A stretch of DNA of 24,212 nt from a virus: positions 1 to 24,212 of the IMG/VR virus record IMGVR_UViG_3300020084_001170; one strand, given 5' to 3'. The position numbers and the translations under genes are program-made. Under the pieces are notes generated by a model that saw nothing but the letters and a program-made list of their open reading frames with translations, did no database searches and was not told the origin of the DNA. Position 1 is the first letter of the stretch. Each line of letters begins with the position of its first letter. Of this stretch, positions 7,801 through 24,212 are shown piece after piece.

Positions 7801-8262
7801 TTAACAATATGCCCCAGAACATCTTTTTTTACCATCAAGACCTGGTTTTGTTCCTTTACAAACTTGTACGGCGTAACCATTGGCGTAAGCACTAGGATAC
7901 ACGTCAAATTTTGCTTTGGCCGCTGCCTTTCCTCTGGCACATAGTTTTGTTCCAGTTTTTTTTCTTCCTTCAGCCATCACCATATCTTTATCATCAATAT
8001 TCATTGACATTTCAATACCATCTTTTTTTGATTCATTCATAATAAAATCAAATACTTGATCCATATTGTTTTTTGCTTCAGCTATGTGATCTTGGGCCCA
8101 GTCATGTCCATTTTCTAAAATTGACTCAACCATTTCTTCATCTAAATCAAGTAATAAATCACATTGTCTTCTCATTTGTTGTAGGTTTGAAAAGAACATA
8201 TATCTTGACGACCCGTGTTCTTCTTCTCTTAAAACCTTTCTAATTATTCTATCTAAATTCAT
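7801..8262 (-). CDS. Probable head-packaged protein with Cys-rich C-terminal module
   Basis: I start this at the ATG at 8262 (153 residues). That leaves MNLDRIIRKVLREEEHG at the N-terminus, which matches the N-terminus of the 370-residue protein (MKIEEIIKNVLKEATG). The alternative ATG at 8280 adds six residues and overlaps the previous gene. The middle is acidic and helical (about 20-95). The C-terminal 50 residues are basic with four cysteines: LCARGKAAAKAKFDVYPSAY, a VCKGTKPG turn and a CSGAYC end. I recall this module from other marine T4-type phages, but its function is not known to me. The (L)-R-E at the end of the first helix fits a T4-type prohead protease site. Packaging inside the head is therefore inferred from the shared motif. 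About 39 bases of A/T-rich DNA separate it from the next gene. Confidence 0.75.
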   Translation of the reverse strand: MNLDRIIRKVLREEEHGSSRYMFFSNLQQMRRQCDLLLDLDEEMVESILENGHDWAQDHIAEAKNNMDQVFDFIMNESKKDGIEMSMNIDDKDMVMAEGRKKTGTKLCARGKAAAKAKFDVYPSAYANGYAVQVCKGTKPGLDGKKRCSGAYC

Positions 8263-8272
8263 ATCTAATATG

Positions 8273-8890: not shown

Positions 8891-8902
8891 ATTTTTATTT
8901 TT

Positions 8903-10360: not shown

Positions 10361-10380
10361 TTATCTTTTTAATATAAATA

Positions 10381-11922
10381 TCAATTAATTCGAATATTTG
10401 GATTCAAATATCTTTTTCTTTCTAATTCAGCTCTTATCTGTTCTTTACTAATTCCAGAACTAGTTTTTTTGGCCGGCGGTCTTAATGGATTATGAACGTG
10501 ATCTGTCATAAAAGTAACAATCTTATCAAGTAGTTCATATAGTTCATCACCTCTAACCATAGCATTTGTCCTACCTTTCAAGTAATCAGTAAATGTTGGT
10601 TGTTCAATACCATATAAAGTATTTTTCAAATCAATTGTAAAAACATCATCGGTAGTTTGATGTGTTAAAAAGTAAAGAAAATCACCACCCATTGTTGCGT
10701 ATGTAACTGGGTTTGACTTATATTCAGATTTTTCAACATCAACGGATGTTTCAATATTTTGTGGCCCAACGATATTATAATCCCAAATTACAGCAAATCC
10801 AGGTTCAGTACTTGAATCAAAAAGTTTTATTTTATTATAAATGTTAGTTACTACATTATTTTCTGTAAAATCTGTTGTTGGGTTTATATCTAAGATTTTT
10901 GAATTAGTTGACACACTAGGCCCATAAACAAAAGGAAACTGGTCAATTAATTTTCCAGAATTTGGGTATTTGTTATACCCTTCAATATTAATAACACCTT
11001 TATTGAAACCTCTAATGTATGTATTAATAAAATTAATCGAATCTTCGATACTTAGTCCAGTAAAAACATATTTTGAATTAGGAATTAGATTAAAATTTAC
11101 AGTAGTCCCAGTATCAAAATTAAAATTATATGTTGTAACATTTTTTACAGTATTTATTTGTACATAACCATCAACAGTATTTGCAGTAATGTTTATGTTT
11201 GAAATGTCCCATTCAACAAAATTTTTAACTTCTTTATCGACAAACTTTGTTATATCAATAGTTTCAGTACCAGTATCAACTAATTCTTGGTCAAAAATAG
11301 ATAATTGTAAGAATGATCTTTTATCATATGGTCTTACATCTGGTTGTGTTATTTGGCCAGTATCAGTAAAATCTAAATCAAATGTTTTTCTATATTTTCC
11401 AGCACGTAATAAAACATCAGTTTTTTTTAAAACTAAGTCTGTTGATCCACGACTTAACAATGCGTTATCACCAGGTAACGGATAAATATCCTTTACAATT
11501 TCTTGAACATTACCAGTTTTACTATTTCTTGTTTCGTAACTTTTTTGAAGTGGTGCACCATTATCTAAGACTGATTGTGCGTTATTATAATTTTCACGAA
11601 CATTATTCCAAGGTCTACTGATTGGTCCTTGAATATAGAATTTATTACTAGATAAAGGTTCAACTCTTGTTGAATACATAATGTTGACATATTCACCGAC
11701 TTCAGGTACTTGACTAATGTAATAAGGTAATAAAGGTAAAAAAATGAAAGGGTCGTCAGATGTCCAAGCGTATTCACTAACTGATTTTGGTGTCCCATCT
11801 GAATTTGTGGGGATAGATTGATTTTCAAACTTTGTTTGGGGTTCAACTCTAATTCTACCAATCATAAGTGGATCAGTATTATCTAAAACTTTACCAGGAA
11901 GTATTATTCTATTATCTTGCAT
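10381..11922 (-). CDS. Baseplate spike or hub protein with gp5-like OB domain
   Basis: This is a 513-residue protein. The first 115 residues look like the OB-fold that opens T4 gp5 and related spike proteins. RIILPGKVLDNTDPLMIGRI leads into RVEP, then after a loop DDPFIFLPLLPYYISQVPEVGEYVNIMYS, a typical 'five-stranded barrel with a V-P-E-V-G-E turn' order. The middle is beta-rich with many Thr and Asn and carries no lysozyme domain, unlike T4 gp5, so cell-wall cutting would have to be elsewhere. The C-terminus (RGDELYELLDKIVTFMTDHVHNP) is helical and then Pro/Lys-rich. The start overlaps the end of the 69-residue gene by 11 bases, suggesting coupled translation. The gp5-type assignment is by recognition only. 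Confidence 0.6.
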   Translation of the reverse strand: MQDNRIILPGKVLDNTDPLMIGRIRVEPQTKFENQSIPTNSDGTPKSVSEYAWTSDDPFIFLPLLPYYISQVPEVGEYVNIMYSTRVEPLSSNKFYIQGPISRPWNNVRENYNNAQSVLDNGAPLQKSYETRNSKTGNVQEIVKDIYPLPGDNALLSRGSTDLVLKKTDVLLRAGKYRKTFDLDFTDTGQITQPDVRPYDKRSFLQLSIFDQELVDTGTETIDITKFVDKEVKNFVEWDISNINITANTVDGYVQINTVKNVTTYNFNFDTGTTVNFNLIPNSKYVFTGLSIEDSINFINTYIRGFNKGVINIEGYNKYPNSGKLIDQFPFVYGPSVSTNSKILDINPTTDFTENNVVTNIYNKIKLFDSSTEPGFAVIWDYNIVGPQNIETSVDVEKSEYKSNPVTYATMGGDFLYFLTHQTTDDVFTIDLKNTLYGIEQPTFTDYLKGRTNAMVRGDELYELLDKIVTFMTDHVHNPLRPPAKKTSSGISKEQIRAELERKRYLNPNIRIN

Positions 11923-12121
11923 TTCTAGACTTATATTCTTTAAGTATTGTGTTATATGTTATTTCTAACTTGTCCAGATGGTCTGTAAGTTTAATAAGAT
12001 TTTCTTTTGTTTTTTCAAATTCAGTATTAATAAATTCAAGGGCAATTTCTAAATCTTTATTAGATTTTTCTTTATACTTTGAAACTATTTCTAAAATTTG
12101 TTCTTTTGTTACCGTTTCCAT
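11912..12121 (-). CDS. Small coiled-coil protein
   Basis: These 69 residues are almost entirely helical and charged. From about 8 to 65 (KEQILEIVSKYKEKSNKDLE onward) hydrophobic residues recur with a heptad-like spacing, so a coiled-coil dimer or trimer is likely. There is no known family. It begins two bases before the stop of the 651-residue gene's upstream-side neighbour space and ends overlapping the start of the spike-like gene, so it is embedded in the baseplate-type run and may be a small assembly factor or chaperone. The ATG at 12121 sits inside the string TATAAATATGG. Confidence 0.7.
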   Translation of the reverse strand: METVTKEQILEIVSKYKEKSNKDLEIALEFINTEFEKTKENLIKLTDHLDKLEITYNTILKEYKSRNAR

Positions 12122-12123
12122 AT

Positions 12124-14079
12124 TTATAATTTTTTTCCAAAAGCAATACTAGGTAATGTCGTACCAATTGGTGTTATGGATAATGGATCAATTGCGATTT
12201 GTACTTGATTATTTTCAGCGTCTTCTTTATCCATACCATCAATTATAGCCTTCATTGCTAGTAAGTATTCATTTGGAGAACCGTCAGGTAATGGACCTGT
12301 CGGTATCCCAAGTTTTTCTAATTCTTCAATAACATTAAGATAAGCTCTTGTTGAAGAAAATCCACTTAAAAATCTTGTTGCTAATAACAAAGGAAGTGGT
12401 ATTTGATTTCCGAAACCCCTAGATGCTAATTTTAATAATTTTAATAAATTATCTATAACACTTTTACATTCTCTAACATCAGTGATGATATCTGCAATTA
12501 CTAAAAGAATTTGTGTTAAAGCAAATATAACCGATAATGTTTTTTTATTTTTTTCAAGTTTAATATCAATTGTTATTGTTGATATTAATTGCTTAATGTC
12601 TTGAACGACTAAATCAAAAATAATTTTTATAAATATTCCATATATTTTTGAAGTTACATTTACAGCAAAATCTTTGAATTTTTTAAAAAAATCAACGTAT
12701 GATTTTACTAAATTGAGAGTTTCATTACCTAAAGCCAACAGCACAATTGCTAATGGTAAAATAACTTTAGGTGACAGTACTGAAAATAAAACCGCCTTTG
12801 GAAATTCCTTAATCATTGATTCGTCAATGTTTATTTGTAATGGTAACCAATCTGGGTTTTTTGTTAATGAATCGGTAATATTTGTTGCATTATCTATTGT
12901 ATTATTATTATTTGATCCGGGTACAAAATTTAAGTTATTTATACTAGTTATTATTGCGGAAGTATCTACAGGTAATTTTATTGTTTGACATTCTTCAAAC
13001 TCTACAACACCATTAAGTGTGTCTGAAATAGATTGGTCAATAAATAAAGTGTCTAATTCATCAAATTCAAAAAAAGAATCGTCAATATTGTCGTTTTCAG
13101 AAACTTTAGCACTACCAGAAACATCAATTTCTTTGTTGCCGTCAAAACATAAACCAAGTATTCTCTGTACAATTAAAGAGACTTTATAAAAATCACCAAG
13201 GTCATTTTTACCATCACCTTTTTCTATCGAAATCGCCCCAGTTAATATATTCATTAAATTTGCAAAAATTGCTTTGAAATCTATAATTTCAATGGACTTA
13301 TAGTAATCTTTAATAAATTCTTTTATCTTTTGACCAGAAACTCTTTGTTTTGGCGTTACCTTAAAATAGTTACCTGAAACACCATTGTTATCTACTTCGG
13401 TATAAGAAATATCAAATAAATCTTGTAATGAAATACCTTGAAAGTTAGAAGAATATTGAATTGAAAAATTTTGATTTATATTTTGAATTCTTTGATATAA
13501 TTCTTTATTCATTGGGAATGGGTTGGAAGGGTATGATAAATTTTCATTTTCATATGAAATTTTTCCAATTTCAGTTGTGGGATCAATTTTTAATAAACCT
13601 AAAAAATCGATTGATTTTACATTAATATATAAATCTTGATTTGGTTGGTATGTCTGGTCGTCTGAACAACCAGCAGTATTTAAAACTTCTTCTTGTAGTA
13701 AACTAAGAATTTTAGGTTTTAATTCATTTAATGCTGTAATAAATTTACCAATTATGTATTTTTTAACATCACCACCCTTTTTATATTTTTCTAATTTATT
13801 TGGGTCTAAACTTTTTAAACCATCGGTAAACTGGTCATCAGCAGATAAAAATTTTATCTTCAACAATTCGTCTAATTGACTATTTTGTTTTTTTTGCCAT
13901 TTATTAAATTTTGATTTTTGTTTTTGATATCTTTTGGTTATTTTAGATTTCTTTTTTTCAAAAGAAGTACCAAGCTTCTTTTTTAATTTTTTATAGTCTC
14001 TAGAAAGTTTTTTATATGTTTGATTTTTTTGTATCGAACTACCAATAGTTTCATATCCTTCTTGAATATCAATTGCCAT
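12124..14079 (-). CDS. Large virion-type protein with a hydrophobic block
   Basis: This is a 651-residue protein. The first 75 residues are a very basic coiled-coil-like segment (KKLSRDYKKLKKKLG, then many Lys/Gln). Residues 100-430 are mixed and Asn/Asp-rich. About 430-540 form a long hydrophobic helical block (for example VILPLAIVLLALGN, IYGIFIKIIFDLVV and LSVIFALTQILLVIADIIT). The C-terminus contains a Pro-rich turn (GIPTGPLPDGSPNEY) and ends in short strands. The family is not recognised. The length, position directly before the coiled-coil and spike-like genes, and hydrophobic helices would suit a tail-tip or baseplate component that meets the membrane. A short tape-measure-like role is also possible, though 651 residues is within the range and not decisive. 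Its start shares a base with the previous stop (TAATG), so translation is probably coupled. Confidence 0.6.
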   Translation of the reverse strand: MAIDIQEGYETIGSSIQKNQTYKKLSRDYKKLKKKLGTSFEKKKSKITKRYQKQKSKFNKWQKKQNSQLDELLKIKFLSADDQFTDGLKSLDPNKLEKYKKGGDVKKYIIGKFITALNELKPKILSLLQEEVLNTAGCSDDQTYQPNQDLYINVKSIDFLGLLKIDPTTEIGKISYENENLSYPSNPFPMNKELYQRIQNINQNFSIQYSSNFQGISLQDLFDISYTEVDNNGVSGNYFKVTPKQRVSGQKIKEFIKDYYKSIEIIDFKAIFANLMNILTGAISIEKGDGKNDLGDFYKVSLIVQRILGLCFDGNKEIDVSGSAKVSENDNIDDSFFEFDELDTLFIDQSISDTLNGVVEFEECQTIKLPVDTSAIITSINNLNFVPGSNNNNTIDNATNITDSLTKNPDWLPLQINIDESMIKEFPKAVLFSVLSPKVILPLAIVLLALGNETLNLVKSYVDFFKKFKDFAVNVTSKIYGIFIKIIFDLVVQDIKQLISTITIDIKLEKNKKTLSVIFALTQILLVIADIITDVRECKSVIDNLLKLLKLASRGFGNQIPLPLLLATRFLSGFSSTRAYLNVIEELEKLGIPTGPLPDGSPNEYLLAMKAIIDGMDKEDAENNQVQIAIDPLSITPIGTTLPSIAFGKKL

Positions 14080-14447
14080 TATTTTTTCATTTTATAATTT
14101 TTATCTGAAGTATCTTTTTCTATTAATGACTTCATAACGTCATCATCTAAATCTAAGTCTGAAAGAGTAAACTCTTCTTCTTTTTCTTGTGATTTTTGCC
14201 AAATTTGGGCTTGTAGTTTCGATAATGAAAGTTTCTTTTCAACACAATCGTTTATAATTTTTTGTTGTTTTTCAATAACAGGACCAATTAGTGTCATATC
14301 TTCTGGTTCTTTCATCATTGTTAACATTTTATTTTGAATCCTAATAGCTGTATTTCTTTGTTCAACAAGTTCATTATAAATTTCTTGCATCAAAGATAAC
14401 ATAGAATCTTTTGTAAGATTAATTTGTTTTTTTTGTGGTCTTGGCAT
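14079..14447 (-). CDS. Small helical hypothetical protein
   Basis: This is a 122-residue hydrophilic protein. The basic N-terminus (PRPQKKQINLTK) is followed by a long helix (SMLSLMQEIYNELVEQRNTA, then RIQNKMLTM) and a second helix (IEKQQKIINDCVEKKLSLSK), giving a helical hairpin. An acidic segment (EEEFTLSDLDLDDDV) and a Lys-rich end close it. It is not recognised. It lies 11 bases after the sigma factor gene and shares TAATG with the large virion-type protein downstream, so it belongs to the same transcript. It may assist assembly of that protein, as small coupled partners often do, but this is only positional. Confidence 0.7.
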   Translation of the reverse strand: MPRPQKKQINLTKDSMLSLMQEIYNELVEQRNTAIRIQNKMLTMMKEPEDMTLIGPVIEKQQKIINDCVEKKLSLSKLQAQIWQKSQEKEEEFTLSDLDLDDDVMKSLIEKDTSDKNYKMKK

Positions 14448-14458
14448 ATTAATAAATA

Positions 14459-15211
14459 CTAATCTTTTAAAATATCCTGTAACAATTCACCATATAATTT
14501 TTTATATCTCTTCATAGATGCCCTAATTTCTTTAGTTGTTAAATTAGTCATCTCCCTCAATTCAAATAAAATAACATTTTTATTGAACTTATTATTGTTG
14601 TTTGTTTCAATAAAAAGATTTTTATAATTTTCAAAAAGGTCAAAAAGTGATTGACCAAGTTTTTGTTCTTGTTCAGTTATTTTTTTATCTTCTAATGAAG
14701 TTTTAAGTTTTTTAAGAAATTTTTTCATAATTTCTTCACTTGTAATTTCTTCATTGTCGATATAGTAAACCATATCTGGACTATTTTGTAAATCAGTTGA
14801 AATGTCTTGATAAGAAATTTTTCTATTCATTTCTTTTTGATCTTTCATTATTTGACCCATCAAATAATTTTTACAAATAGTTCCAAAATAGGAATACGCT
14901 TTTTTTTCTTTTGATGGTTTAAATTTATCAATTTTGGTCATCAAAAATGAATGTGTGTCAATATGGATTTCTTCGTAGTCCATATCTTTTCTATATAATT
15001 TGTATCGTCTAATTATTGACGATATCATTTTATCTAAAGGATGTTTCAAAAAATCATTATATATTTTGTTTTTTTCTTCAAAAGTAGTTGCTTTTAGATA
15101 GTTTCTTACCGCAATTTCTTCTTGTTCGGCAAAATAGTTTTTTACTTTTGGTTTTCTTCCTTTCTTTTTCTTATCATCACATTGTTCACAATTTTCTTCA
15201 TTAATTAACAT
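14459..15211 (-). CDS. Late transcription sigma factor, T4 gp55-like
   Basis: This is a 250-residue protein. I use the ATG at 15211, which overlaps the GT2 stop as TGATG; a TTG one codon earlier is less likely. It should direct host RNA polymerase to late phage promoters. Residues 55-135 carry a sigma region 2 pattern: DFLKHPLDKMISSIIRRYKL, then THSFLMTKIDKFKPSKEKKA, YSYFGTICKNYLMGQIMKDQ and KEMNRKISYQDI. T4 gp55 has the same order ([20 protein letters not shown] then F-V-Q-R-I-K-K-E). The last 45 residues (REMTNLTTKEIRASMKRYKK) look like a helix-turn-helix of region 4 type, which T4 gp55 lacks. The first 25 residues have C8-x-x-C11 and a GRKP sequence that could touch DNA. Its location among virion genes fits a late regulator. 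Confidence 0.75.
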   Translation of the reverse strand: MLINEENCEQCDDKKKKGRKPKVKNYFAEQEEIAVRNYLKATTFEEKNKIYNDFLKHPLDKMISSIIRRYKLYRKDMDYEEIHIDTHSFLMTKIDKFKPSKEKKAYSYFGTICKNYLMGQIMKDQKEMNRKISYQDISTDLQNSPDMVYYIDNEEITSEEIMKKFLKKLKTSLEDKKITEQEQKLGQSLFDLFENYKNLFIETNNNNKFNKNVILFELREMTNLTTKEIRASMKRYKKLYGELLQDILKD

Positions 15212-16017
15212 CAAACTTCTTGTGGTTCATATTTTATATCTCTTTCTTTAATAAAAAGATATTCTCTTTTAGCGGAGTCAATCCAGAATTTAACTTCATC
15301 TTCAGATAATCTATCATCACCATTTTTGTAATTCCAGAAAATTGACCCATCTCTTAAATTCATATGTTTGTAACCGATTCTTGGTATTGTCATAATTTTA
15401 ACATTGTTATTTGTCATTCTTAACAAGAACTCATAACCAAACGTGAGTTTGAAAGAATCTTTTAACATTCCAAAATCAACGAAAGATTTTTTTCTTATGA
15501 CCATTCCAGATATTTGGAAATTTTGGTATGTAAGTAAAGTTTCATTATCCAAGTAACCCATTTCAGTTGAAAAGTTTGCAGCAAAAGTTGCTTCATTGGT
15601 AAAACCCACAAAAACACCTTTATAGTCCACATCAACAACTATTGGTAAAAATGCGTCAACATTACCATAAATGTCCATATAATTTTTTGCATTCTTGAAC
15701 CAAATTTTGGAGTATTCATCGTCAAATTCCAAAATAGAAACCCACTCAGATGTTGCTTTACTAACACCATAATTTACCTGGTTTGCAAAACTTGGGCTTC
15801 CGTCAAATTCTTCTATAATTACATCTAATGTTCCAAAATCAAAACTTGAAACAAAATTTTGAAAATAACTTTCTCCTACGTGAACAATAATTAATTCACT
15901 AACTAAACCTTCTTGGTTTTTTACAGAAGTTATTGCCTTTTCAAAAAATTCTTCAAAGTCTACTGCTTTACCAGATTTTATTGGTAATATAACCGATATT
16001 GTGTTTTTACTTTCCAT
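15211..16017 (-). CDS. Family 2 type glycosyltransferase
   Basis: This 268-residue protein starts at the ATG at 16017, two bases past the previous stop; a TTG at 16035 is the less likely alternative. The N-terminus (TISVILPIKS) is the first strand of a GT-A fold. DGSPSFANQVNYGVSKATSE then WVSILEFDDEYS (72-103) matches the GT2 pattern of an 'N-x-G-x-x-x-A-x-G' helix followed by a D-x-D-like acidic cluster (E97-F-D-D-E), which binds metal and nucleotide sugar. The acceptor side includes GMVIRKKSFVDFGMLKDSF and a GYEFLLRM element, in the place of the GT2 'E-D-x-x-L' step. It probably adds a sugar to a phage or host glycan. It is coupled to the sigma factor gene by a one-base overlap. Confidence 0.75.
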   Translation of the reverse strand: MESKNTISVILPIKSGKAVDFEEFFEKAITSVKNQEGLVSELIIVHVGESYFQNFVSSFDFGTLDVIIEEFDGSPSFANQVNYGVSKATSEWVSILEFDDEYSKIWFKNAKNYMDIYGNVDAFLPIVVDVDYKGVFVGFTNEATFAANFSTEMGYLDNETLLTYQNFQISGMVIRKKSFVDFGMLKDSFKLTFGYEFLLRMTNNNVKIMTIPRIGYKHMNLRDGSIFWNYKNGDDRLSEDEVKFWIDSAKREYLFIKERDIKYEPQEV

Positions 16018-16018
16018 A

Positions 16019-17080
16019 TTAATCAATTGTTTCAAATTTATTTAGTTGTTCTTCAAATGTTTTCATTCTTGTTTCTATCATTTCTGAAAAAACACTAATA
16101 ACATTTTTTTCAAAGTTTTCGATGTTTGAGTATTGCTCAACAGTTTTATCCATAGCATCAAAAAGTTCTGGGTTCAAATTATCTTCTAACCAGTTCTGTG
16201 TAAAATCGGCAACAACTTCAACCAATGAATTTTTATTTGCTAACCAAATTCCGTTGTCTTCGTTCAACCATTCTGGTTGTAAATGTGGTAACATACCAAT
16301 AACTGGAACACCAGATTTCATTGATTCTAATGGGAATGTACCAAAACCACTTGTTTGATCAATCCATACCGAAACAAAACTTTCTTTAAGTGCTGTTGCA
16401 AATTCTTTTTCTGTTAGTCCTCTTAAATCTCTAAATGTAATCCATCTATATTGTGGAAACTTAACATAGAATTGTTTAATTAAATTTACAGTTTCCCTTT
16501 GATCTCTTGAATGGATTGAAATGATAGTTTTTGCTGGGTTTTCACTTTTAACAAAACAATCACTTATTATAGGTTTTATAATTTCGAAAGAAACTTTTCT
16601 CATAATTTGTTCAATATGGGTTTTTTGTGTTTCGGAAGTTGTGATACATTTAAAAAACCCTAATTGTTGCCAGTTTTGTCCAGGTTGTAGTGTTTCAAAA
16701 ATATGGTCATAAGCTTGTGCTATAACAACTTTTCCACAAGGTAACTTTTTTACTTGGTCCATAACATATCCAAAAATTTCTGGTATAATTAAAATATCAT
16801 CTGGTGAAATTTCTAAATTACCATCATCAATAGATTTATGTTGTAGTTCATTCATATATTCTTCACCTAACCATTCACCAACACCAATATATTCTTTGTT
16901 TTCGTGTAATATTATAGGATTGTAACCATCTTTTTTTAAGACCATAGCGATTTGATAAGTCAGTCTAACTGAAGCTTTCGCATTTCCTTTAGTATCCTGG
17001 ACAACAAAGTATAATCTGGATTTTTTGTCCTTCATACTTTGAACTGCTTTTTCTAATTTTTTTATCTGTTCGGCATTCAT
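16019..17080 (-). CDS. Family 4 (GT-B) type glycosyltransferase
   Basis: This 353-residue enzyme probably transfers a sugar from a nucleotide donor. A short helical leader (1-22) precedes an N-terminal Rossmann half (RLYFVVQDTKGNAKASVRLT, with later strands PIILHEN, DDILIIPEIFG and KVVIAQAYDHIFE). The C-terminal half begins at TIISIHSRDQRETVNLIKQF (about 185). SVWIDQTSGFGTFPLESMKS followed by GVPVIGM (237-263) is the donor-binding signature of GT4 enzymes: the Gly-Phe-Gly turn, E252 and the G-V-P-V strand. The usual E-x7-E is relaxed to a single clear Glu. It ends two bases before the GT2 start, so the two glycosyltransferases are probably made together. Acceptor and sugar are unknown. Confidence 0.75.
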   Translation of the reverse strand: MNAEQIKKLEKAVQSMKDKKSRLYFVVQDTKGNAKASVRLTYQIAMVLKKDGYNPIILHENKEYIGVGEWLGEEYMNELQHKSIDDGNLEISPDDILIIPEIFGYVMDQVKKLPCGKVVIAQAYDHIFETLQPGQNWQQLGFFKCITTSETQKTHIEQIMRKVSFEIIKPIISDCFVKSENPAKTIISIHSRDQRETVNLIKQFYVKFPQYRWITFRDLRGLTEKEFATALKESFVSVWIDQTSGFGTFPLESMKSGVPVIGMLPHLQPEWLNEDNGIWLANKNSLVEVVADFTQNWLEDNLNPELFDAMDKTVEQYSNIENFEKNVISVFSEMIETRMKTFEEQLNKFETID

Positions 17081-17388: not shown

Positions 17389-18043
17389 ATTCTTCTTTTA
17401 TTTTTTTTAATAATAAGTTAAAATCAGATAAAGTGGATATTTCAAAGTCACAATTAATTTCTTTATTATATTCACGAATAAATTTTATAACAGTCTTATT
17501 TTCTGGTTTATTTTTAATTAAATCTGGATTCGATGTTATTAATATGTCTACTTCGTCCCACATTTCAGATTTTGTAACTTCACTATAAAAAACAACCTTT
17601 TCTAATAAACATCCAAATTTTGCTAAAAAAAATAATGATGCTGGCTTTGATTTACCAATTTCATCGGAAACAATCAAAAGTTCGAATTCATCTCTTAATT
17701 CGTAGTACAAATCATTTAATATGTTAAATGTGTTCATTTCTGTTGATGGTGCGTGACCAAATAATTCCATTGTATATTCTTCATACATAAATGAATATAA
17801 TTCTTCTTTATTTTGAAATGAAAAATGTTTCATTAAATCTAAAGAATTGACATCACTAATTATTTCATAGTTAAATGGTTCTGGTGTTGTTTCTTCTTCA
17901 GTATTTCCAGACATATCAAGTTTATATGTTTGACCTATAAATTCATTTTGGTTGCTATAAATTAAATGTTTTTCATAAACTTGTTTAAATTTTTCTATGG
18001 TGTCTCTTAAAACACCATTAATTTCAATCCCTATTCTCTTCAT
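17381..18043 (-). CDS. HAD-like protein with altered catalytic motif
   Basis: This 220-residue protein has the order of a small HAD phosphatase of the deoxyribonucleotidase type, but key residues differ. The opening KRIGIEINGVLRDT corresponds to motif I, normally D-x-D-G-V-x-x-D. Here the nucleophile Asp is E7 and the general acid Asp is N9, while G10, V11 and D14 remain. Motif II fits LLIVSDE (S126), motif III the lysine in KSKPASLFFLAKFG (K131 or K133), and motif IV DEVDILITSNPDLI (D163, E164, D166). With E7 and N9 it probably cannot form the phospho-aspartate, so it may bind a ligand or regulate instead. It overlaps PhoH by 20 bases. The HAD fold is inferred from motif order; another Rossmann-like fold is possible. 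Confidence 0.6.
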   Translation of the reverse strand: MKRIGIEINGVLRDTIEKFKQVYEKHLIYSNQNEFIGQTYKLDMSGNTEEETTPEPFNYEIISDVNSLDLMKHFSFQNKEELYSFMYEEYTMELFGHAPSTEMNTFNILNDLYYELRDEFELLIVSDEIGKSKPASLFFLAKFGCLLEKVVFYSEVTKSEMWDEVDILITSNPDLIKNKPENKTVIKFIREYNKEINCDFEISTLSDFNLLLKKIKEEYV

Positions 18044-18755
18044 ATTTTGACAATATTTTACCTATTAATGGGTTACGAACATTTTTTGCACCTCTAAAAT
18101 CAAAAACACCAATATTTGGAATATCAGTAAATCTTTGTATTGCATCATAAAGACCTGATTGTTTTTTATCTTTATATCTGTCAGTTTGTTCTAAATCACC
18201 TGATATAAAGAATTTACTATTGAAACCTATTCTTGTCAATAAAAGTTTCATTTGATTTGGTGTTGAATTTTGTGCTTCTTCAAAAATTAATATTGAATTA
18301 TCTATGTTCATACCTCTCATATATGCAAGAGCAAAAACTTCTATAATTTCAGCATCCTTTAATTTTTCTCTAGCTTCCTTACCGATAATTTTATTCAATA
18401 AGTAGTAAGAAGGAAAAATATAAGGATCTAACTTTTCTTCTAAATTACCAGGTAATGAACCAAGTTTTTCTTCAGCTTCAACAGCTGGCCTTACAATTAT
18501 AATTTTTTCATAAGAATTATTTGGATCCATAAGTAAATCAACAGCTGCTTTCATTGCTATATATGATTTACCAACACCTGCCGGCCCTGAAGCAATTGTT
18601 ATTTCGTTTGATTTTAAAATATTATAATAATCTTCTTGGTGTTCAGTTAAAAATTTATTTTTTTGTTTTTTCTTAATTACGGAATTAATGTATTCTTTTC
18701 TTGAAAACGGTTTTGATTCGGAATCATCATTCTGTGTAACTTTCTTTCTGTTCAT
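18024..18755 (-). CDS. phoH: PhoH-family P-loop ATPase
   Basis: This is a 243-residue ATPase of the PhoH family, common in marine phages. PhoH-like proteins are linked to RNA metabolism and phosphate stress, but the role in phage is not settled. After a basic leader (1-35) it has LTEHQEDYYNILKSNEITIA and the Walker A motif GPAGVGKS (57-64). VRPAVEAEEKLGSLPGNLEE (88-107) is a hallmark of the family. ILIFEEAQN (155-163) is Walker B with the E-A-Q-N ending, with Glu where most family members have Asp. FISGDLEQTDR is the sensor-like segment after it. The length matches the ATPase core alone. The start lies 29 bases inside the end of the GMD gene, an unusually deep overlap that suggests coupled translation. 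Confidence 0.93.
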   Translation of the reverse strand: MNRKKVTQNDDSESKPFSRKEYINSVIKKKQKNKFLTEHQEDYYNILKSNEITIASGPAGVGKSYIAMKAAVDLLMDPNNSYEKIIIVRPAVEAEEKLGSLPGNLEEKLDPYIFPSYYLLNKIIGKEAREKLKDAEIIEVFALAYMRGMNIDNSILIFEEAQNSTPNQMKLLLTRIGFNSKFFISGDLEQTDRYKDKKQSGLYDAIQRFTDIPNIGVFDFRGAKNVRNPLIGKILSKYEENRD

Positions 18756-19731
18756 AGTCTTTTTTTAATTTGTTTAGCCAATAGTCTATCATTTCGTCTA
18801 ACATCGTTTCAAATGTATAAGTTGGTTCCCAACCAGTTGTAGACTTTAGTTTTTTTGAATCGCCTTTCAAATCATTTAATTCTTCGGGTCTAAAAAATTT
18901 TTCATCTGTTGTAACGTATTTTTTCCAGTCCAATTCTAATTTATTAAATACATACTCAACAAGTTCTTTTACAGAATGTGAAATTCCTGTTGAGCAAACA
19001 AAATCATCTGGTGTTTCTTGTTGTAATATTAACCACATAGCTTCAACGTAATCTTTTGCATGCCCCCAATCTCTTGTTGCCTCTAAATTACCAAGTTTTA
19101 ATTGATCAGATAAACCTAATTTAATTTTTACAGCTTCTTTACAAACTTTGTTTGTTACGAAATTTGTACCACGTCTTGGCGATTCGTGATTAAATAAAAT
19201 ACCATTTGATATAAACATATTGTAAGAATTTCTATAGTTTCTACAAATGTTATATGAAAATACTTTTGCACATCCATAGGGTGATACCGGAGACATCGGT
19301 GTCGATTCTCTTTGATACCCATCATCATCAATGTTGTTTCCAAACATTTCAGAAGAAGACGCTTGGTATAATTTAATTGTTGGGTCAACAAGTTTAATAG
19401 CTTCTAACATATTTAGTGTTCCCATCCCAGTTGCGTTAGCCGTATATATCGGTTGGTCAAATGAAATTCTTACATGTGATTGTGCTGCCAAATTATATAT
19501 TTCGTTTGGTTTTGTTTTTTGTATAACACTAATTAGAGATGATAAATCTGTTAAATCGCCGTAATGTAATTTTAATTGGTTATAAATATCATCAAGTCTT
19601 GATGTTTGGTTTTCTGAAACAGAATTTCTTTTTAATGTTCCGTGAACTTCATACCCTTTATTAAGTAAAAATTCCGCAAGATATGATCCGTCCTGACCAT
19701 TTATTCCTGTTATAAGCGCTATTTTTTTCAT
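18727..19731 (-). CDS. gmd: GDP-mannose 4,6-dehydratase
   Basis: This 334-residue enzyme converts GDP-D-mannose to GDP-4-keto-6-deoxy-D-mannose, the first step to GDP-L-fucose and other deoxyhexoses. It is an extended short-chain dehydrogenase. GINGQDG (9-15) binds NADP, and GDLTD (58-62) and NLAAQSHV (80-87) line the cofactor. ASSSEMFG (124-131) supplies the Ser and E128, and Y152-x-x-x-K156 (PYGCAK) completes the catalytic set. FNHESPRRG and the GNLEATRDWGHAKDYVEAMW stretch are nearly invariant in this family. All active residues are intact and the length is close to the usual. It sits two bases after the fucose synthase gene, the usual partner. Confidence 0.95.
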   Translation of the reverse strand: MKKIALITGINGQDGSYLAEFLLNKGYEVHGTLKRNSVSENQTSRLDDIYNQLKLHYGDLTDLSSLISVIQKTKPNEIYNLAAQSHVRISFDQPIYTANATGMGTLNMLEAIKLVDPTIKLYQASSSEMFGNNIDDDGYQRESTPMSPVSPYGCAKVFSYNICRNYRNSYNMFISNGILFNHESPRRGTNFVTNKVCKEAVKIKLGLSDQLKLGNLEATRDWGHAKDYVEAMWLILQQETPDDFVCSTGISHSVKELVEYVFNKLELDWKKYVTTDEKFFRPEELNDLKGDSKKLKSTTGWEPTYTFETMLDEMIDYWLNKLKKDYEQKESYTE

Positions 19732-19733
19732 TT

Positions 19734-20648
19734 TTATTTTCTTATAAGATTATAGTTTTTTTCAAAATATTCAATAGTTTCTTTTAAACCATTATATATT
19801 GGTGTAAATTTGAAATTTGGTAAATAATTTTTAATTTTACTATTATCACTTGGTTTTCTAAATTGCCCATCTGGTTTTGATGAATCCCATTTTACGGAAC
19901 CTTTAAAGTTCATAAGTTCAACAATAATTTCAACAACATCTTTAATTGCGATTTCTTCTGAAGTTGATAAAATAATTGGTTCATTTTCGGTGTAGTTTTC
20001 TAGAACCCACTCTGTAAGTTTTGCAACGTCACGACTAAATATGAATTCTCTTAATGGTTTTCCAGAACCCCAAATTGTAAAATCAGTTTTGTTTTTTCTA
20101 GCCAGATAACATTTGTGAATTAATGATGGAATTACGTGTCCGTTTTCTATATTGTAATTATCGTTTGGACCATATATGTTTGTTGGTATTACAGACTTAT
20201 AATTTAAATCATATTGTTCTTTGTAAGCCCTAATTTGAATGTCCGACATTCTTTTAGAATAGGCATAAGCATCATTAGAAAAATGCGGTGGACCAAGATG
20301 TATTTTTTTTTCTGTTAATGGGTATTCAACATCGTTTGGAAAAACACAAGTCGACAAAAAAGCTACAAGGTTTTTAATTTTGTATTTTCTAGCTTGTTCA
20401 ATAACATTAGTATTCATCATAATGTTATCGTAAAAAAACTCACCTTTGTATTTCATATTACTACCAACACCACCAACTTTAGCAGCACAATGTATTATAC
20501 CATCAAAATTTGTTTGGTTAAAAAAATTATCAACATCTAAAGTATTTCTTAAATCAACATTATTTGATGATATTTTTATATAATTTTCTTTAGTAAATTC
20601 AGACCCAACTAAACCATAACCACCAGTAATTAAAATTTTATTATTCAT
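19734..20648 (-). CDS. fcl: GDP-L-fucose synthase
   Basis: This 304-residue epimerase-reductase turns GDP-4-keto-6-deoxy-mannose into GDP-L-fucose with NADPH. The cofactor loop is TGGYGLVG (8-15). Family marks are HCAAKVGGVGSN (53-64), LSTCVFP (98-104) with S99 and the catalytic-type C101, and NDAYAYSKRM with Y128 and K132. IPTNIYGPNDNYNIENGHVI and then GSGKPLREFIFSRD are typical of this enzyme. The length is slightly below that of the bacterial enzyme (about 320). It starts directly before the FkbM stop (adjacent stop and start), so it is read in one unit with that gene and gmd, giving a two-step pathway from host GDP-mannose. Confidence 0.94.
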   Translation of the reverse strand: MNNKILITGGYGLVGSEFTKENYIKISSNNVDLRNTLDVDNFFNQTNFDGIIHCAAKVGGVGSNMKYKGEFFYDNIMMNTNVIEQARKYKIKNLVAFLSTCVFPNDVEYPLTEKKIHLGPPHFSNDAYAYSKRMSDIQIRAYKEQYDLNYKSVIPTNIYGPNDNYNIENGHVIPSLIHKCYLARKNKTDFTIWGSGKPLREFIFSRDVAKLTEWVLENYTENEPIILSTSEEIAIKDVVEIIVELMNFKGSVKWDSSKPDGQFRKPSDNSKIKNYLPNFKFTPIYNGLKETIEYFEKNYNLIRK

Positions 20649-21254
20649 TTAATTTATTCTTTTTTGCCAATTTTCCCAAACAAAGTCAAAATTGTAAGTT
20701 AATTTATGTGTTTTAAGTAATTTTTCTTGAAGTTCATTTCTTAAATTTTCTGCGTCTGGTATAAAATTATGAAACTGAACTTGTATGTCTGTAAAAATTT
20801 CTATCAGATTATTTTCAATAAGTGATTTTAATGTTTCGAATTCATCACCTTCAGTATTAATTTTTATTAAATCAATTTTTTCTATTTTATTTTCTGAAAT
20901 AAAATCACAAATTGATTTTATTTGACATTCAATAATTTGTTTACCTACGTTTGAATGGAAACTACTACCATCTTCTGAATAATTTATATTTAATTTTTTA
21001 GTTTCATTTGATAAACCAAAATTAAATACTTTAATTTTTTCGTTACCTAAAAATTTATTTTTAATTTGTTCTGACAAATGTGGTATTGGTTCAAAAACAA
21101 ATATATTACATTTATATTTTTCCCATATTCTACTTGTCCAGTCACCAACGTATCCACCTAAATCAAACACTATTGAATTTTCATCAAGTTGATAATCTAA
21201 TCTTAACGTCGAATCTCCATTTGCCGCAAACCATTCATTAATTTGTTGTTTCAT
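20649..21254 (-). CDS. FkbM-family methyltransferase (first)
   Basis: This 201-residue SAM-dependent methyltransferase probably O-methylates a sugar. IVFDLGGYVGDWTSRI (about 28-43) is the SAM-binding motif I, with G-G-Y-V-G. NIFVFEPIPHLSEQIK is the acidic strand that contacts the ribose. NFGLSN follows, and IDLIKINTEGDEFETLKSL carries the K-I-N-T-E-G-D-E motif that FkbM members use in place of D-x-E-G. The C-terminus contains IFTDIQVQFHNFIPDAE, probably the acceptor side. The start follows the GT10 stop by two bases. Three complete genes of this type lie in the cluster and are diverged from each other, so they likely methylate different positions. Confidence 0.85.
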   Translation of the reverse strand: MKQQINEWFAANGDSTLRLDYQLDENSIVFDLGGYVGDWTSRIWEKYKCNIFVFEPIPHLSEQIKNKFLGNEKIKVFNFGLSNETKKLNINYSEDGSSFHSNVGKQIIECQIKSICDFISENKIEKIDLIKINTEGDEFETLKSLIENNLIEIFTDIQVQFHNFIPDAENLRNELQEKLLKTHKLTYNFDFVWENWQKRIN

Positions 21255-21256
21255 AT

Positions 21257-22105
21257 TTATTGTATTAAAAATTTGTAATTTTCATAAAGATAATTTTCAG
21301 ATAAAATATATTTTTTTGATTCATCAAAATTATTTTTTATCCCAGTTTTGTACAATTCAAAATCAATTTTTTGAATTTCATTTATAACTTCATTAATTTC
21401 TTCAAAAGAGTTTACTATTATCATCCCAGAAGTGTCAAAAACCTCGTCAATTTTTGGATCCCCCCAATAAATTGGTACAGTTCCTGTTACAAAACAATCT
21501 ATTAATTTTTCTGTAAAATACCCAGGCACCCTTGAATTTTCAATTGTTACGTGAAATTTGTAATCTTTTAAAGCTGTTATTTTATTTTCAATGTAATTAA
21601 AGCCTCTACCAAAAATATCAATTGGTAAGTTTTCGTTTTTAATTTTATGTCTCAATTTATGTCCTTCTAATTGTGTTTTATTAGAAATCATCATTGATAC
21701 TAATTTATTTTTTTGGTATTCACAAGACCAGTCCGAATCACTTACCCAACAACCACCAGTAGGTAACCAAAGTGAGTTTGGAATTTTAGGTATAATTTCT
21801 TTATCGTGAGTTAATACATAGTCGTATTTTTTATAATTTGATTCTATCCAATAATAGTTCATAGGTGAAAAAAACTTACATTCTAAAAGCCAAGCTATTT
21901 TTTTAATGGGTAGATTTATTATTGATTGATTCATAATGTTAGACTCTGTAACAAACAATGTTTCGTTTTGATTAATGTTTGGTGACCTATCCCAATAAAG
22001 ATATTGTGATTTTTGTAGTGGAGGTGTTGGGTTATTACTGTATTCACAATGTGAAAAGGCAGCATCAACAATTTTTAATTTTATTTTATTTAAATTTTGA
22101 TCCAT
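21257..22105 (-). CDS. Family 10 alpha-1,3-fucosyltransferase-like
   Basis: This 282-residue enzyme is predicted to move fucose from GDP-fucose to a glycan. I use the ATG at 22105. The longer start at 22156 would lengthen the overlap with the GT11 gene from 16 to 67 bases. The N-terminal half contains VDAAFSHCEYSNN and an aromatic KIAWLLECKFFSPMNYYWIE segment. The GT10 signature is near residues 182-213: YKFHVTIENSRVPGYFTEKL then IDCFVTGTVPIYWGDPKI, with the E-N-S, Y-F-T-E-K-L and V-P-I-Y-W-G elements that bind GDP-fucose. It overlaps the GT11 gene. The presence of a full GDP-fucose pathway two genes away supports fucose as its sugar. Linkage and acceptor are inferred from the family only. 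Confidence 0.82.
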   Translation of the reverse strand: MDQNLNKIKLKIVDAAFSHCEYSNNPTPPLQKSQYLYWDRSPNINQNETLFVTESNIMNQSIINLPIKKIAWLLECKFFSPMNYYWIESNYKKYDYVLTHDKEIIPKIPNSLWLPTGGCWVSDSDWSCEYQKNKLVSMMISNKTQLEGHKLRHKIKNENLPIDIFGRGFNYIENKITALKDYKFHVTIENSRVPGYFTEKLIDCFVTGTVPIYWGDPKIDEVFDTSGMIIVNSFEEINEVINEIQKIDFELYKTGIKNNFDESKKYILSENYLYENYKFLIQ

Positions 22106-22857
22106 TCTTCTAATAATAAATCTTTTATTTCGTGTTTTATTGCTGAACCAAACCATCTACTTGGTGCCACAACAATCTTTTCATTGTTATTATTTAACCA
22201 GGCACCCCACCAAGAAAATGTAGAATTTGCAATTATATTATTTTTGCACATAGACATTAACCATAATTCAATATAGTCAGGGTTACCATCTATGTAAATT
22301 ATTTTATTTTTATAATTTTTAAAACTTTCTTTACACCAATTAATATCGTCAGAAAAAATTAATAAGTTTTCTGGTTTTATAATATCAATTGCTTTATGAT
22401 AGTATGACATTTCACATATTGGGTGATGTAATGGTAAATTTTTATAATCGCCACGTCTTATATGTAACGATGTAGAATTTAAAAAATCAATATCTTTGTA
22501 TTTTTCATTAATGTACTTTAATGAATTTTTGTCAATAGAAAATAAATCTAGAATTTTATTTCTATTATTTTTGAAGTATCTTTCACTCTGGAAATAACCA
22601 TTCAATAAAAGATTTTTTATGTGTGGTATTTTTTCATACGTAAAGCTTGTTTCGTTGTAAAAAAAATCAGGTTTTACTTGTCCAAATTTTAAATCTCTAA
22701 AAATATTCGGTATGTACGTTTCTATTTTTTTATGTCCGATTTTACTTGTTTGTATATCAAAAACACATTCATCATTATTATCTAAAGCTAAAGAATATGC
22801 CGCAGAAATCTGAAACATAAAATTACCCAAACCGCCGGCTAAATTTGTGCTAACCAT
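22090..22857 (-). CDS. Family 11 alpha-1,2-fucosyltransferase-like
   Basis: This 255-residue fucosyltransferase of GT11 type has three family motifs in order: AGGLGNFMFQISAAYSLA (7-24), SLHIRRGDYKN (130-140), where H-I-R-R-G-D-Y is the donor-binding H-x-R-R-x-D-Y, and IIANSTFSWWGAWLN (208-222). The last motif is the clear mark of bacterial alpha-1,2-fucosyltransferases. SYYHKAIDII and LIFSDDINWCKE lie between them as expected. The N-terminus is full length. The gene ends inside the GT10 start (16 bases), so the two fucosyltransferases are probably translated together. Its substrate, typically a galactose-type terminal sugar in the family, is not known here. Confidence 0.9.
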   Translation of the reverse strand: MVSTNLAGGLGNFMFQISAAYSLALDNNDECVFDIQTSKIGHKKIETYIPNIFRDLKFGQVKPDFFYNETSFTYEKIPHIKNLLLNGYFQSERYFKNNRNKILDLFSIDKNSLKYINEKYKDIDFLNSTSLHIRRGDYKNLPLHHPICEMSYYHKAIDIIKPENLLIFSDDINWCKESFKNYKNKIIYIDGNPDYIELWLMSMCKNNIIANSTFSWWGAWLNNNNEKIVVAPSRWFGSAIKHEIKDLLLEEWIKI

Positions 22858-22858
22858 T

Positions 22859-23488
22859 TTATTCGTAAATAATTAAATCCCACTCACTATTATTTTTTTC
22901 AAAAATTTTAATATATTCGTAATTTACATATTTTGGGTTGTAATACCAATCTTCATAAGGAAAATTATTACTACAAACGTCAGAAGAAATTAATTCATAA
23001 CCCATTTGTTTAAATATTTTTCTGGATTCTTTTCGGTATTGATCTCCAAACCTATATTTGTCATGTTCATAAGTTATAACAGAAAATTCTATTTTATCAA
23101 ATGGAATTGCTTTTAGACATTCTAGTGTTACATTTGCTGGCTCTAAATCTAGAGATAAATAATCAATATGATTACTATTATAATAACTTAAAACTTCTTC
23201 AAAGTCTAAAGAAGTACAATCTCTTGTTATTGATTTAGTATTTCTATGACTTGGGTATTTTGATGTTAAACTTTCGTCAATGTCAATTGACAACCCATCC
23301 CAACCAAAATATTTTTCAAGTAAATAGGTGTTGTTTATATGAGTTGGGTGAGCACAACCTAAATCCAAAAAAGTACCATTTTTTTTCCCTTTCAAACAAG
23401 AAAGTACAAACAAATCTTGTGCTGCCTGACTATAGTTATTTTCTATTTTGTCGTAATCTGTAAATGGTAATTTAAGATTTTTTTTCAT
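22859..23488 (-). CDS. FkbM-family methyltransferase (second)
   Basis: This 209-residue protein with an FkbM fold opens with SQAAQDLFVLSCLKGKKNGT and then FLDLGCAHPTHINNTYLLEK (SAM motif I, with an unusual C-A-H-P-T after the first Gly), then GWDGLSIDID for the ribose-binding strand. IDYLSLDLEPANVTLECLKA replaces the common D-V-E-G motif with D-L-E-P. A C-terminal segment with ISSDVCSNNFPYEDWYYNPK is Cys- and aromatic-rich. The two motif changes set it apart from the other copies; it is probably a methyltransferase with a different acceptor. It ends one base before the GT11 start and begins three bases after the third FkbM gene's stop. Confidence 0.8.
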   Translation of the reverse strand: MKKNLKLPFTDYDKIENNYSQAAQDLFVLSCLKGKKNGTFLDLGCAHPTHINNTYLLEKYFGWDGLSIDIDESLTSKYPSHRNTKSITRDCTSLDFEEVLSYYNSNHIDYLSLDLEPANVTLECLKAIPFDKIEFSVITYEHDKYRFGDQYRKESRKIFKQMGYELISSDVCSNNFPYEDWYYNPKYVNYEYIKIFEKNNSEWDLIIYE

Positions 23489-23491
23489 TTT

Positions 23492-24115
23492 TTAAATGTT
23501 GAAATTTTTATTTTTGTATATGTAATCACAACCTAAAGTAGTAATCTTTTCAAAATTTTTCGATTCTAAATAATTAGATATAAAATCTGAATTGTGATTT
23601 ACTTCGATTGAAATCAAATTTATTTGATTTTTATTAAAATCAATAGTTTCTAAAATTTTCATTTCTGAACCTTCAACATCTAAACTCATGTAATCTATAT
23701 TTTTTGGTAGATTTAATTCGTCAAAAGTTATAGTTTCTGTTGTTATAATTTTTTTATTACCTCCCATCATTCTTAATTCATTTTCTATTCTTAATAAATG
23801 TGCTGGATTGTAATTTTCTAATAAACCACTCAACATTTCGGTATAACCCTCAAGTAATAGAAAATTTTCAGTACCCTTTTTATTCGATAGAGCACAATTA
23901 AATAATTTACAGTTTCTATTTTCTTTTAATTTATTGAACACGTTTGGTATCGGTTCTATACAAACCCCATCCCAACCCAATTTTTCAAAAAAGTAAGTAT
24001 TACTTAAAGTTATACCGTCGTGTGCTCCTATATCTAAATAAAACCCATTATTTTTTTCTTTAAAAAAGTTTTCAAATAAAAACTTATCTTGACCATATTG
24101 TGAATAAAATTCCAT
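23492..24115 (-). CDS. FkbM-family methyltransferase (third)
   Basis: This 207-residue protein is the most typical FkbM member in the window. YSQYGQDKFLFENFFKEKNN is the usual FkbM opening (S-Q-x-G-Q-D). GFYLDIGAHDGITLSNTYFF is SAM motif I with D-I-G-A-H-D-G. GWDGVCIEPIPNVFNKL has the E-P-I-P ribose strand, NCALSN follows, and IDYMSLDVEGSEMKILE holds the D-V-E-G-S-E motif. The protein ends in a Lys/Asn tail. It shares the S-Q-x-x-Q-D opening and GWDG with the second copy, suggesting an old duplication of these two, while the first copy is more distant. It probably methylates a sugar hydroxyl. Its ATG is preceded by A/T-rich DNA without a Shine-Dalgarno. Confidence 0.88.
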   Translation of the reverse strand: MEFYSQYGQDKFLFENFFKEKNNGFYLDIGAHDGITLSNTYFFEKLGWDGVCIEPIPNVFNKLKENRNCKLFNCALSNKKGTENFLLLEGYTEMLSGLLENYNPAHLLRIENELRMMGGNKKIITTETITFDELNLPKNIDYMSLDVEGSEMKILETIDFNKNQINLISIEVNHNSDFISNYLESKNFEKITTLGCDYIYKNKNFNI

Positions 24116-24127
24116 AAATATATTTTT

Positions 24128-24212
24128 TTAATTTAAAATGTATAGTGTGTCGTATTCAAATCTTTCTTTTATAGAATAACCAAGTGAAAACAAAAGGTTA
24201 TCTAAATCATCT
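24128..24212 (-). CDS. C-terminal end of a gene at the window edge (partial)
   Basis: On the minus strand a frame runs in from the edge and gives 27 residues (DDLDNLLFSLGYSIKERFEY then DTLYILN) before TAA at 24130-24128. It ends 12 bases before the third FkbM gene. The pattern, a helix then 'L-G-Y' and a final 'D-T-L-Y-I-L' strand, matches how FkbM-type methyltransferases often end, so another such gene may begin outside the window. This is suggestive only. Confidence 0.55.
   Translation of the reverse strand, partial: DDLDNLLFSLGYSIKERFEYDTLYILN

Follow-up and report, generated by a model that had tools for sequence, protein, structure and literature searches.

The DNA analysed here, called the window in the following, is the entire 24,212-base IMG/VR record IMGVR_UViG_3300020084_001170 of an uncultured phage. 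Its minus strand carries a cassette in which gmd and fcl, two genes for the predicted synthesis of GDP-L-fucose, stand beside putative fucosyltransferases of the GT10 and GT11 families and a series of FkbM-family methyltransferases. While this gene combination is already known from cyanophages, less expected is the variable locus in which it lies, where relatives of the phage carry colitose-type enzymes.

Read from base 24212 down to 18727, the cassette forms a single minus-strand run: the 3' end of one FkbM gene, FkbM c, FkbM b, GT11, GT10, FkbM a, fcl and gmd, and then phoH. All named cassette genes are present with open frames. A preliminary description, made from the sequence without database searches, had placed gmd, fcl, GT10, GT11 and three complete FkbM genes in one minus-strand run at 18727-24212. 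The genes are borne out by their Pfam and NCBIfam matches and open frames, but the limits are not, since the run continues to the left with phoH, a GT-B-like and a GT2 gene, and to the right with a fourth FkbM gene, two glycosyltransferase genes and a weak GT4-like gene.

The first two enzymes would make the sugar donor. Gmd (18727-19731), a GDP-mannose 4,6-dehydratase, matches PF16363 (E 2.8e-122), exceeds the equivalog cut-off of the NCBIfam model TIGR01472 (421.7 bits; cut-off 415) and carries the SS(S)E and YxxxK motifs (TGINGQDG, SSSEMFG, SPYGCAK and NHESPRRG). Fcl (19734-20648) is a GDP-L-fucose synthase-like epimerase/reductase (PF01370, E 2.5e-48), whose nearest solved relatives are GDP-fucose synthases, the best of them the GDP-L-fucose synthase 4e5y in the PDB (E 4.8e-91). 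The residues that we take to be its catalytic Ser/Cys, Tyr/Lys and His align with those of the solved enzymes (motifs STCVFP, YAYSK and GHVIPSLIHK).

Both putative fucosyltransferases pass the cut-offs of their Pfam families. The GT10 gene (21257-22105; PF00852, 59.1 bits, cut-off 23.9) has its longest frame from 22156; the ATG at 22105, with a 16-base overlap with GT11, is the likelier start. R152, E189-N190 and E199-K200 do not vary among the 17 phage proteins aligned, and N190, E199 and K200 align with N240, E249 and K250 of HpFucT, presumably residues of the donor site. A structural model (predicted local distance difference test, pLDDT, 86.5) has its best PDB matches by Foldseek in Helicobacter pylori FucT, also in complex with GDP-fucose, and FUT9, with FUT11 and FUT13 lower. 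The model supports a GT-B fold; the family assignment rests mainly on sequence, because the template modelling (TM) scores of these matches are about 0.55, fourth place goes to the GlcNAc-type transferase SdgB, which is no fucosyltransferase, and an unspecified glycosyltransferase, 6eji, has the top TM-score listed (0.65). GT11 (22090-22857; PF01531, 94.9 bits, cut-off 23.9) contains the motifs GGLGNFMFQ, HIRRGDY (the HxRxGD signature), FSDD and FSWWGAW. A sequence search of the PDB gave it no credible relative; its model (pLDDT 93.6) shows a GDP-fucose-type fold, with NodZ bound to GDP-fucose as first Foldseek match, then POFUT1/2, FUT8 and plant FUT1, and 50 of the 50 matches listed are fucosyltransferase entries (TM-scores 0.47-0.58). 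The preliminary reading of a fucose-type donor pathway beside both fucosyltransferase classes is thus supported by families and PDB matches as well as by the modelling it had proposed, in which the best matches are fucosyltransferases, GDP-fucose complexes included, at modest TM-scores.

The three complete FkbM genes all exceed the PF05050 cut-off of 22.7 bits, and two of the three that of TIGR01444 (37.7 bits): FkbM a (20649-21254) reaches 42.9 and 63.9 bits, and FkbM c (23492-24115) 87.3 and 50.1 bits. FkbM b (22859-23488; PF05050, 24.5 bits) has no NCBIfam match and is the weakest gene call of the cassette; it shares 39.7% identity with FkbM c over 68 residues. These two lie in the same reading frame, with only a TAA and one codon between them (23486-23494), so that readthrough would yield a double FkbM protein. 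The fourth copy, FkbM d, is cut by the window end (24128-24212) and complete on a longer contig (87776-88405; PF05050, 70 bits).

This contig, a 127,688-base IMG/VR record, was found by a scan with GT10 and is 99.988% identical to window bases 19-24212 (24,194 bases); the window maps to its positions 63649-87860, the first of which is extrapolated from the match. A gp23-type major head protein on the plus strand of the window (2166-4007; phrog_138, E 1.1e-65) and a T4-type terminase to the left of the cassette on the contig (PF03237, 44.7 bits, cut-off 22) place the phage among the T4-type, as had been proposed. We also considered that the segment might be host chromosome, which the preliminary description had named as its possible undoing, and reject this: terminase and gp23 lie on one side of the cassette and a phage-type peptidase (phrog_16701) on the other, and further phage records share the synteny.

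A variable locus between phoH and dUTPase

The left border of the locus is phoH (18024-18755, minus strand; PF02562, E 6.6e-63). Beyond it, on the same strand, lie a gene named by eye as a GT-B-like glycosyltransferase (16019-17080), for which the Pfam scan gave no match and which has 18 homologues in relatives at 49-91% identity, and a GT2 family glycosyltransferase (15211-16035; PF00535, 29.2 bits), which is 93.3% identical to its nearest relative with a ratio of nonsynonymous to synonymous substitution rates (dN/dS) of 0.045. On the contig, the genes to the right of the window are the fourth FkbM, a galactosyltransferase-like glycosyltransferase, a GT2_5 gene, dUTPase, an exonuclease-like gene and the weak GT4-like gene (22.2 bits, under the cut-off of 27).

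A first sample, obtained with GT11 or the flank genes as queries, comprises 26 loci with the cassette between phoH and dUTPase, merged by eye into 18 distinct ones, all but one of which were found via GT11; elsewhere, merging by identical DNA reduced 80 loci to 59. Because of this selection, the sampling was repeated with the GT-B-like gene as anchor. From the 80 closest loci listed, leaving out identical GT-B sequences and loci in which the anchor starts before base 9000 yields 45 distinct loci, window phage included, with at least 9 kb upstream in view, which represent close relatives and not a census. phoH lies upstream of the anchor in all 45, and 16 reach the dUTPase end. Within the stretch in view, gmd occurs in 19 loci, GT10 in 12, GT11 in 11, both transferases in nine, a window-type Fcl in eight, a ColC-type protein in six and ColD in eight. 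The 406 open reading frames (ORFs) of these cassettes fall into 164 families, 98 of them confined to one locus. Among the 144 family representatives searched against Pfam, GT2 (15), FkbM (12) and Methyltransf_24 (11) predominate, followed by epimerases, other methyltransferases and hexapeptide acyltransferases with five each.

How abruptly the content changes can be seen in the nearest relative, which is represented by two contigs and incomplete. On the left side, protein identities are 90.7% for the GT-B-like gene, 81.5% and 69.5% for two small genes, 91.8% for phoH and 94.3% for gmd. At the single junction between gmd and fcl, identity drops to 39.7%; GT10 follows with 45.1% over 59% of its length and GT11 with 54.1%, and none of the FkbM genes a, b, c and d finds a match in this relative. 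To the right, it recovers to 77.9%, then 93.3% for GT2_5, then 88.8%, 93.6% and 94.4%. A test of cassette against remaining identities is weak (p 0.046), as missing genes were set to zero, 44 of the 116 other ORFs are likewise without match and the relative is incomplete; low values also occur outside the cassette (contig ORFs 71921-72538, 39.6%, and 104288-106768, 59.7%). Comparison of these loci shows a conserved backbone, with the GT2 gene, the GT-B-like gene and phoH on one side and GT2_5, dUTPase and the exonuclease on the other, that encloses interchangeable nucleotide-sugar enzymes, glycosyltransferases and methyltransferases.

We also followed a hint that multiple FkbM copies might go with the fucose branch, as among 18 records only the two with Fcl and without ColD had at least two FkbM matches. 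This link was dropped: in a tblastn search with the four FkbM proteins of the window phage, five of the six anchored loci with Fcl and without ColD had no FkbM, and the sixth is the window phage itself.

Predicted fucose and colitose branches

Some relatives carry a protein of 382-386 residues at this locus that points to a sugar other than fucose. The best PDB match of one such protein is the dehydratase ColD (2gms, E 2.2e-56), well ahead of the next class (3.3e-26). In ColD, the catalytic His188 stands, as we understand it, where a pyridoxal phosphate-binding Lys is usual. This His is invariant in the nine ColD-type proteins aligned, out of ten distinct ones; by the STIEGG motif, 10 of the 14 distinct members of the cluster are ColD-type and four are Lys-type. 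A ColD match is present in 22 of 30 loci examined, with His in the best match in 22 of 22, and six of these also have a weaker Lys-type match. In all six anchored loci that have a colC1-type protein, ColD lies in the same upstream stretch. Among the 18 distinct loci of the first sample, ten combine ColD with an Fcl homologue (L122 without gmd), two have Fcl without ColD (the window phage and L166), four have gmd without an Fcl homologue and two have neither. A genome scan returned 34 bacterial or archaeal ColD loci, all with the His (34/34), and gmd together with an Fcl homologue lies nearby in 18 of them (fetched stretches of at most 6 kb on each side). The presence of a ColD-type dehydratase in eight of the 45 anchored loci predicts GDP-L-colitose (3-deoxyfucose) rather than fucose as their product. 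The 127.7-kb contig of the window phage has no ColD (best E 0.34).

A tree built from 46 Fcl homologues places most of the phage proteins whose locus also has ColD in two clades, one of which includes bacterial ColD neighbours as well (support 100/99). The window Fcl groups with that of L166 (100/99), a locus without ColD. The E. coli and cyanophage Fcl proteins occupy a separate part of the tree, which includes some long branches and some ColD neighbours.

Perosamine was considered as a third branch in L136, L141, L149 and L180, where gmd is followed by a small DegT-like protein and a hexapeptide acetyltransferase; but the former has just a marginal PDB match (E 0.005) and the latter matches entries named galactoside O-acetyltransferase, so that this branch is speculative. 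ColD-type proteins also occur beyond this clade. In the cyanophage ACG-2014f, gp225 (L266 5883-7076), annotated as an aminotransferase, carries the ColD-type His and adjoins gmd and an Fcl-like gene; it is probably an unrecognised dideoxysugar dehydratase of Synechococcus phages. A Lokiarchaeota metagenome-assembled contig (L226) encodes ColD, an Fcl homologue, and GT11 and GT10 matches that closely resemble those of the phages, and may be a misbinned phage contig. In the titles and abstract beginnings of the open-licence literature, we found no report of phage-encoded colitose synthesis.

The core cassette genes are under purifying selection, which speaks against the idea of stuffer DNA. Pairwise dN/dS, computed with our own NG86 script, ranges from 0.035 to 0.323 for gmd, ColD, Fcl/ColC, GT10 and GT11 (phage pairs with unsaturated dS; one gmd pair was saturated) and reaches up to 0.50 and 0.53 in distant pairs of a GT2-like gene (c9) and an acetyltransferase (c21); these values are rough, many pairs having a dS above 1. 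Together with the abrupt boundary of the swap and the co-occurrence of ColD and an Fcl homologue, this selection argues that entire sugar pathways are maintained in working order and exchanged. For the lipopolysaccharide (LPS)-like clusters of T4-type cyanophages, the choice between function and stuffer DNA is described as unknown in the part of the report available to us (PMC3037559).

The phage and the destination of its predicted glycan

The closest matches of the head protein among collected phages are an uncultured phage (46.7% identity), Flavobacterium phage immuto (41.6%, covering 54% of the query) and a Microcystis phage (41.2%), and none of the 2,485 phage records that match it reaches 60% identity. 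That the host belongs to the Bacteroidota is a guess and not a result. At ORF starts, Shine-Dalgarno-like sites are no commoner than in shuffled sequence (3 of 123, 4.0 when shuffled), and the upstream sequence is A-rich. Of the 148 contig ORFs, 52, among them the head protein, have the motif TATTTAT[AT] in the 120 bases before them, and ATATTTAT is found in 31 of the 123 upstream stretches, where 3.4 would be expected. This AT-rich motif is likely a phage promoter element; examples in the window stand upstream of 4114, 5481 and 14447. On the minus strand, the contig from 94145 to 78106 has no such site except one within gmd, so that a distant promoter may drive the cassette.

Several other genes deserve mention. 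Directly behind the head protein lies an Endonuclease VII-type gene (4114-4791). Among loci of gp23 relatives, many of them short, 22 of 80 have it, so it may be a mobile insertion. On the minus strand of L094, a 697-residue ORF (2856-4949) contains an Fe/Mn superoxide dismutase in mid-protein (PF02777, 133.3 bits) and, by eye, a metalloprotease-like N-terminus, and an SNF2-type helicase (5389-7464) has LAGLIDADG homing-endonuclease matches in its N-terminal part, probably marking an intein. To the right of the GT4-like gene, a 954-residue protein (L092 17127-19991) has a Pro-Thr-rich tract and, at its C-terminus, a peptidase domain of the papain type (PF00112, E 3.1e-5; phrog_16701, E 4e-54).

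Regarding the destination of the glycan, we searched nine phage records (the window phage among them; three of 215-282 kb, two probably parts of one phage) for the hallmarks of a Wzx/Wzy-type O-antigen cluster. Neither the flippase family PF01943 nor the lipid-carrier initiating transferase family PF02397 was found in any of the nine, and nor was the sugar nucleotidyltransferase family PF00483; the search covered these three families and not Wzy or other flippase and initiating families. In 14 control genomes, PF02397, PF01943 and PF00483 matched in 9, 13 and 14, respectively. By a simple hydropathy count, none of the 148 contig ORFs has more than four membrane segments. GDP-mannose would therefore come from the host, and the missing families favour glycosylation of phage proteins in the cytosol. 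Far to the right of the cassette, the contig encodes a GT8 protein (87.5 bits; L093 6854-7597) and a PF11397 GlcNAc-transferase (235.1 bits; L093 12132-13376). PF11397, which we take to be the family of the eukaryotic cytosolic Skp1 protein GlcNAc-transferase, occurs in six of the nine phage records and in none of the 14 control genomes. A prolyl-hydroxylase-type 2-oxoglutarate-Fe(II) oxygenase (L088 9508-9819; PF13640, 57.4 bits) is present in one of the nine, namely the window phage contig. Tracts rich in Pro, Ser and Thr occur in five of the 148 ORFs (shuffled mean 0.22). That of the papain-domain protein recurs in nine of 15 distinct homologues, among which the window phage's own L101 is counted, and that of a 205-residue window ORF (8273-8890), poly-Thr followed by Ser-Pro-Pro, in only two of 34, homologues being scored by a slightly looser rule. 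As glycan acceptors, these tracts are suggestive only.

Given these observations, we favour, with a probability of roughly one half, the explanation that the cassette represents the fucose form of a hypervariable locus for glycan biosynthesis in a clade of uncultured T4-type phages, and that its glycan most likely sits on phage proteins. Gmd would convert host GDP-mannose to GDP-4-keto-6-deoxymannose, from which the Fcl of the window phage would form GDP-L-fucose, and ColD with a different Fcl homologue in some relatives GDP-L-colitose. In the cytosol, GT10 and GT11 would transfer the deoxysugar to the nascent glycan, which the FkbM enzymes would O-methylate. With the phage's own proteins as the most likely acceptors, a changed glycan would alter how the virion is recognized.

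Several points weigh against this explanation. Fcl scores below the equivalog cut-off of NF047922 (236.7 bits against 500), which is still its best NCBIfam model. The window-type Fcl co-occurs with ColD in two of eight anchored loci and also in L117 and, weakly, L162, so its clade alone is no proof of fucose. As the phage records are fragments, the absences do not extend to whole genomes. The virion as destination is predicted from the gene content, and the position of the cassette inside a virion block was judged by eye only, because its minus-strand neighbours (7302-15214) have neither a Pfam match (seven scanned) nor a PHROG match (six scanned). Moreover, the enzymes may instead remodel the host surface, acting on the LPS, capsule or glycoproteins of the infected cell via a host lipid carrier and flippase and thereby masking receptors from competing phages. 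Gmd-derived sugars are typical of O-antigens, and the gene content resembles an O-antigen cluster. Cyanophage authors have themselves proposed such a change of the host surface for cyanophage LPS genes, in the portions of their papers that we draw on (PMC2984593; PMC9602691). The host could supply initiating transferase and flippase, so that their absence from the nine records and the lack of a protein with many membrane segments on the contig are not decisive; we regard host-surface remodelling as the main alternative, though a less likely one.

It is less probable again that the transferases of the clade depend chiefly on a different GDP-sugar, be it colitose or a similar one, and that the window product is not plain L-fucose. 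In relatives, members of both the GT10 and the GT11 family do occur alongside ColD, and the window-type Fcl shares a locus with ColD in two of eight anchored loci, but the contig has no ColD, the solved relatives of its Fcl are GDP-fucose synthases, and both transferases find their best fold matches among fucosyltransferases. Decoration of phage DNA instead of protein seems highly improbable. DNA glucosyltransferases are known in T4, and the accessible part of one article cites this as one role of phage glycosyltransferases (PMC12619734). The thymidylate synthase/dCMP hydroxymethylase family was not found on the window phage contig, however, and is present in two of the nine records. Furthermore, GT10, GT11 and FkbM are families of protein or lipid glycans. 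Least credible of all, and already disfavoured, is stuffer or recently captured DNA without phage function, an idea raised for cyanophage LPS clusters in the same limited part of PMC3037559; the dN/dS values, the retention of phoH in 45 of 45 loci and the pairing of ColD with an Fcl homologue all speak against it.

Beyond the favoured explanation, we tentatively propose that the locus might act like a serotype locus for the virus coat. Similar to an O-antigen locus, it would have fixed borders; gmd would often open the pathway, and the branch enzymes and transferases could be exchanged to yield L-fucose, L-colitose and possibly an N-acylated amino sugar, with phage GDP-colitose synthesis as part of it. 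In its boldest form, by analogy to Skp1, the PF11397 GlcNAc-transferase would place the first sugar directly on protein in the cytosol, perhaps on the Pro-rich tracts. If the glycan is on virions, phage coats would have serotypes generated on the principle of bacterial O-antigens, with consequences for recognition, adsorption and ecology.

Comparison with known systems

Bacterial O-antigen clusters, including GDP-colitose operons of the gmd-colD-colC type, likewise have conserved borders and swapped sugar genes; the present locus differs in being phage-borne and in that neither a PF01943 flippase nor a PF02397 initiating transferase was found. For mycobacteriophages, glycans on capsid and tail tube proteins are described (Freeman et al. 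2023, as cited in the excerpt of PMC12619734). The chlorovirus PBCV-1, according to the section of PMC4691112 consulted, has its own GDP-L-fucose pathway (GMD and GMER), glycosyltransferases and a methyltransferase-like domain. It is, however, a virus of eukaryotic algae, and enzyme activity and a capsid glycan are reported for it, whereas the window phage is known from its genes alone.

Close parallels are the LPS or glycan clusters of the T4-like cyanophages S-SRM01, S-SCSM1, S-SKS1, P-SSM2 and ACG-2014f, in which gmd and fcl are clustered and several of which include GT11, GT10 or FkbM. The preliminary description had considered both fucosyltransferase classes beside their donor pathway unusual for a T4-type phage, and we had entertained the gene combination as unique; searches of the phage collection and the published description of S-SCSM1 overturned both notions. 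S-SRM01 holds gmd, fcl, NodZ, GT10, FkbM and two GT11 genes within about 11 kb, its GT10 being a gene annotated as putative transferase that is matched by the window GT10, and the combination is therefore not unprecedented. S-SKS1 has gmd, fcl and GT10, and S-SCSM1, in the part of its description available (PMC9602691), gmd, fcl, an alpha-1,2-fucosyltransferase, an O-fucosyltransferase and NodZ. Overall, 22 records of the collection match GT10 and 103 match GT11 (E 1e-3), and 139 match Fcl (E 1e-5). In P-SSM2, one LPS cluster is reported near phoH, as far as the excerpt goes (PMC3037559). Unlike these phages, the window phage belongs to another lineage, as judged by the head protein (below 60% identity), and has four FkbM genes, and its cassette lies between phoH and dUTPase and is replaced gene by gene among close relatives. 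As the cyanophages with the same gene families are in culture, they make the idea of a variable phage coat testable now.

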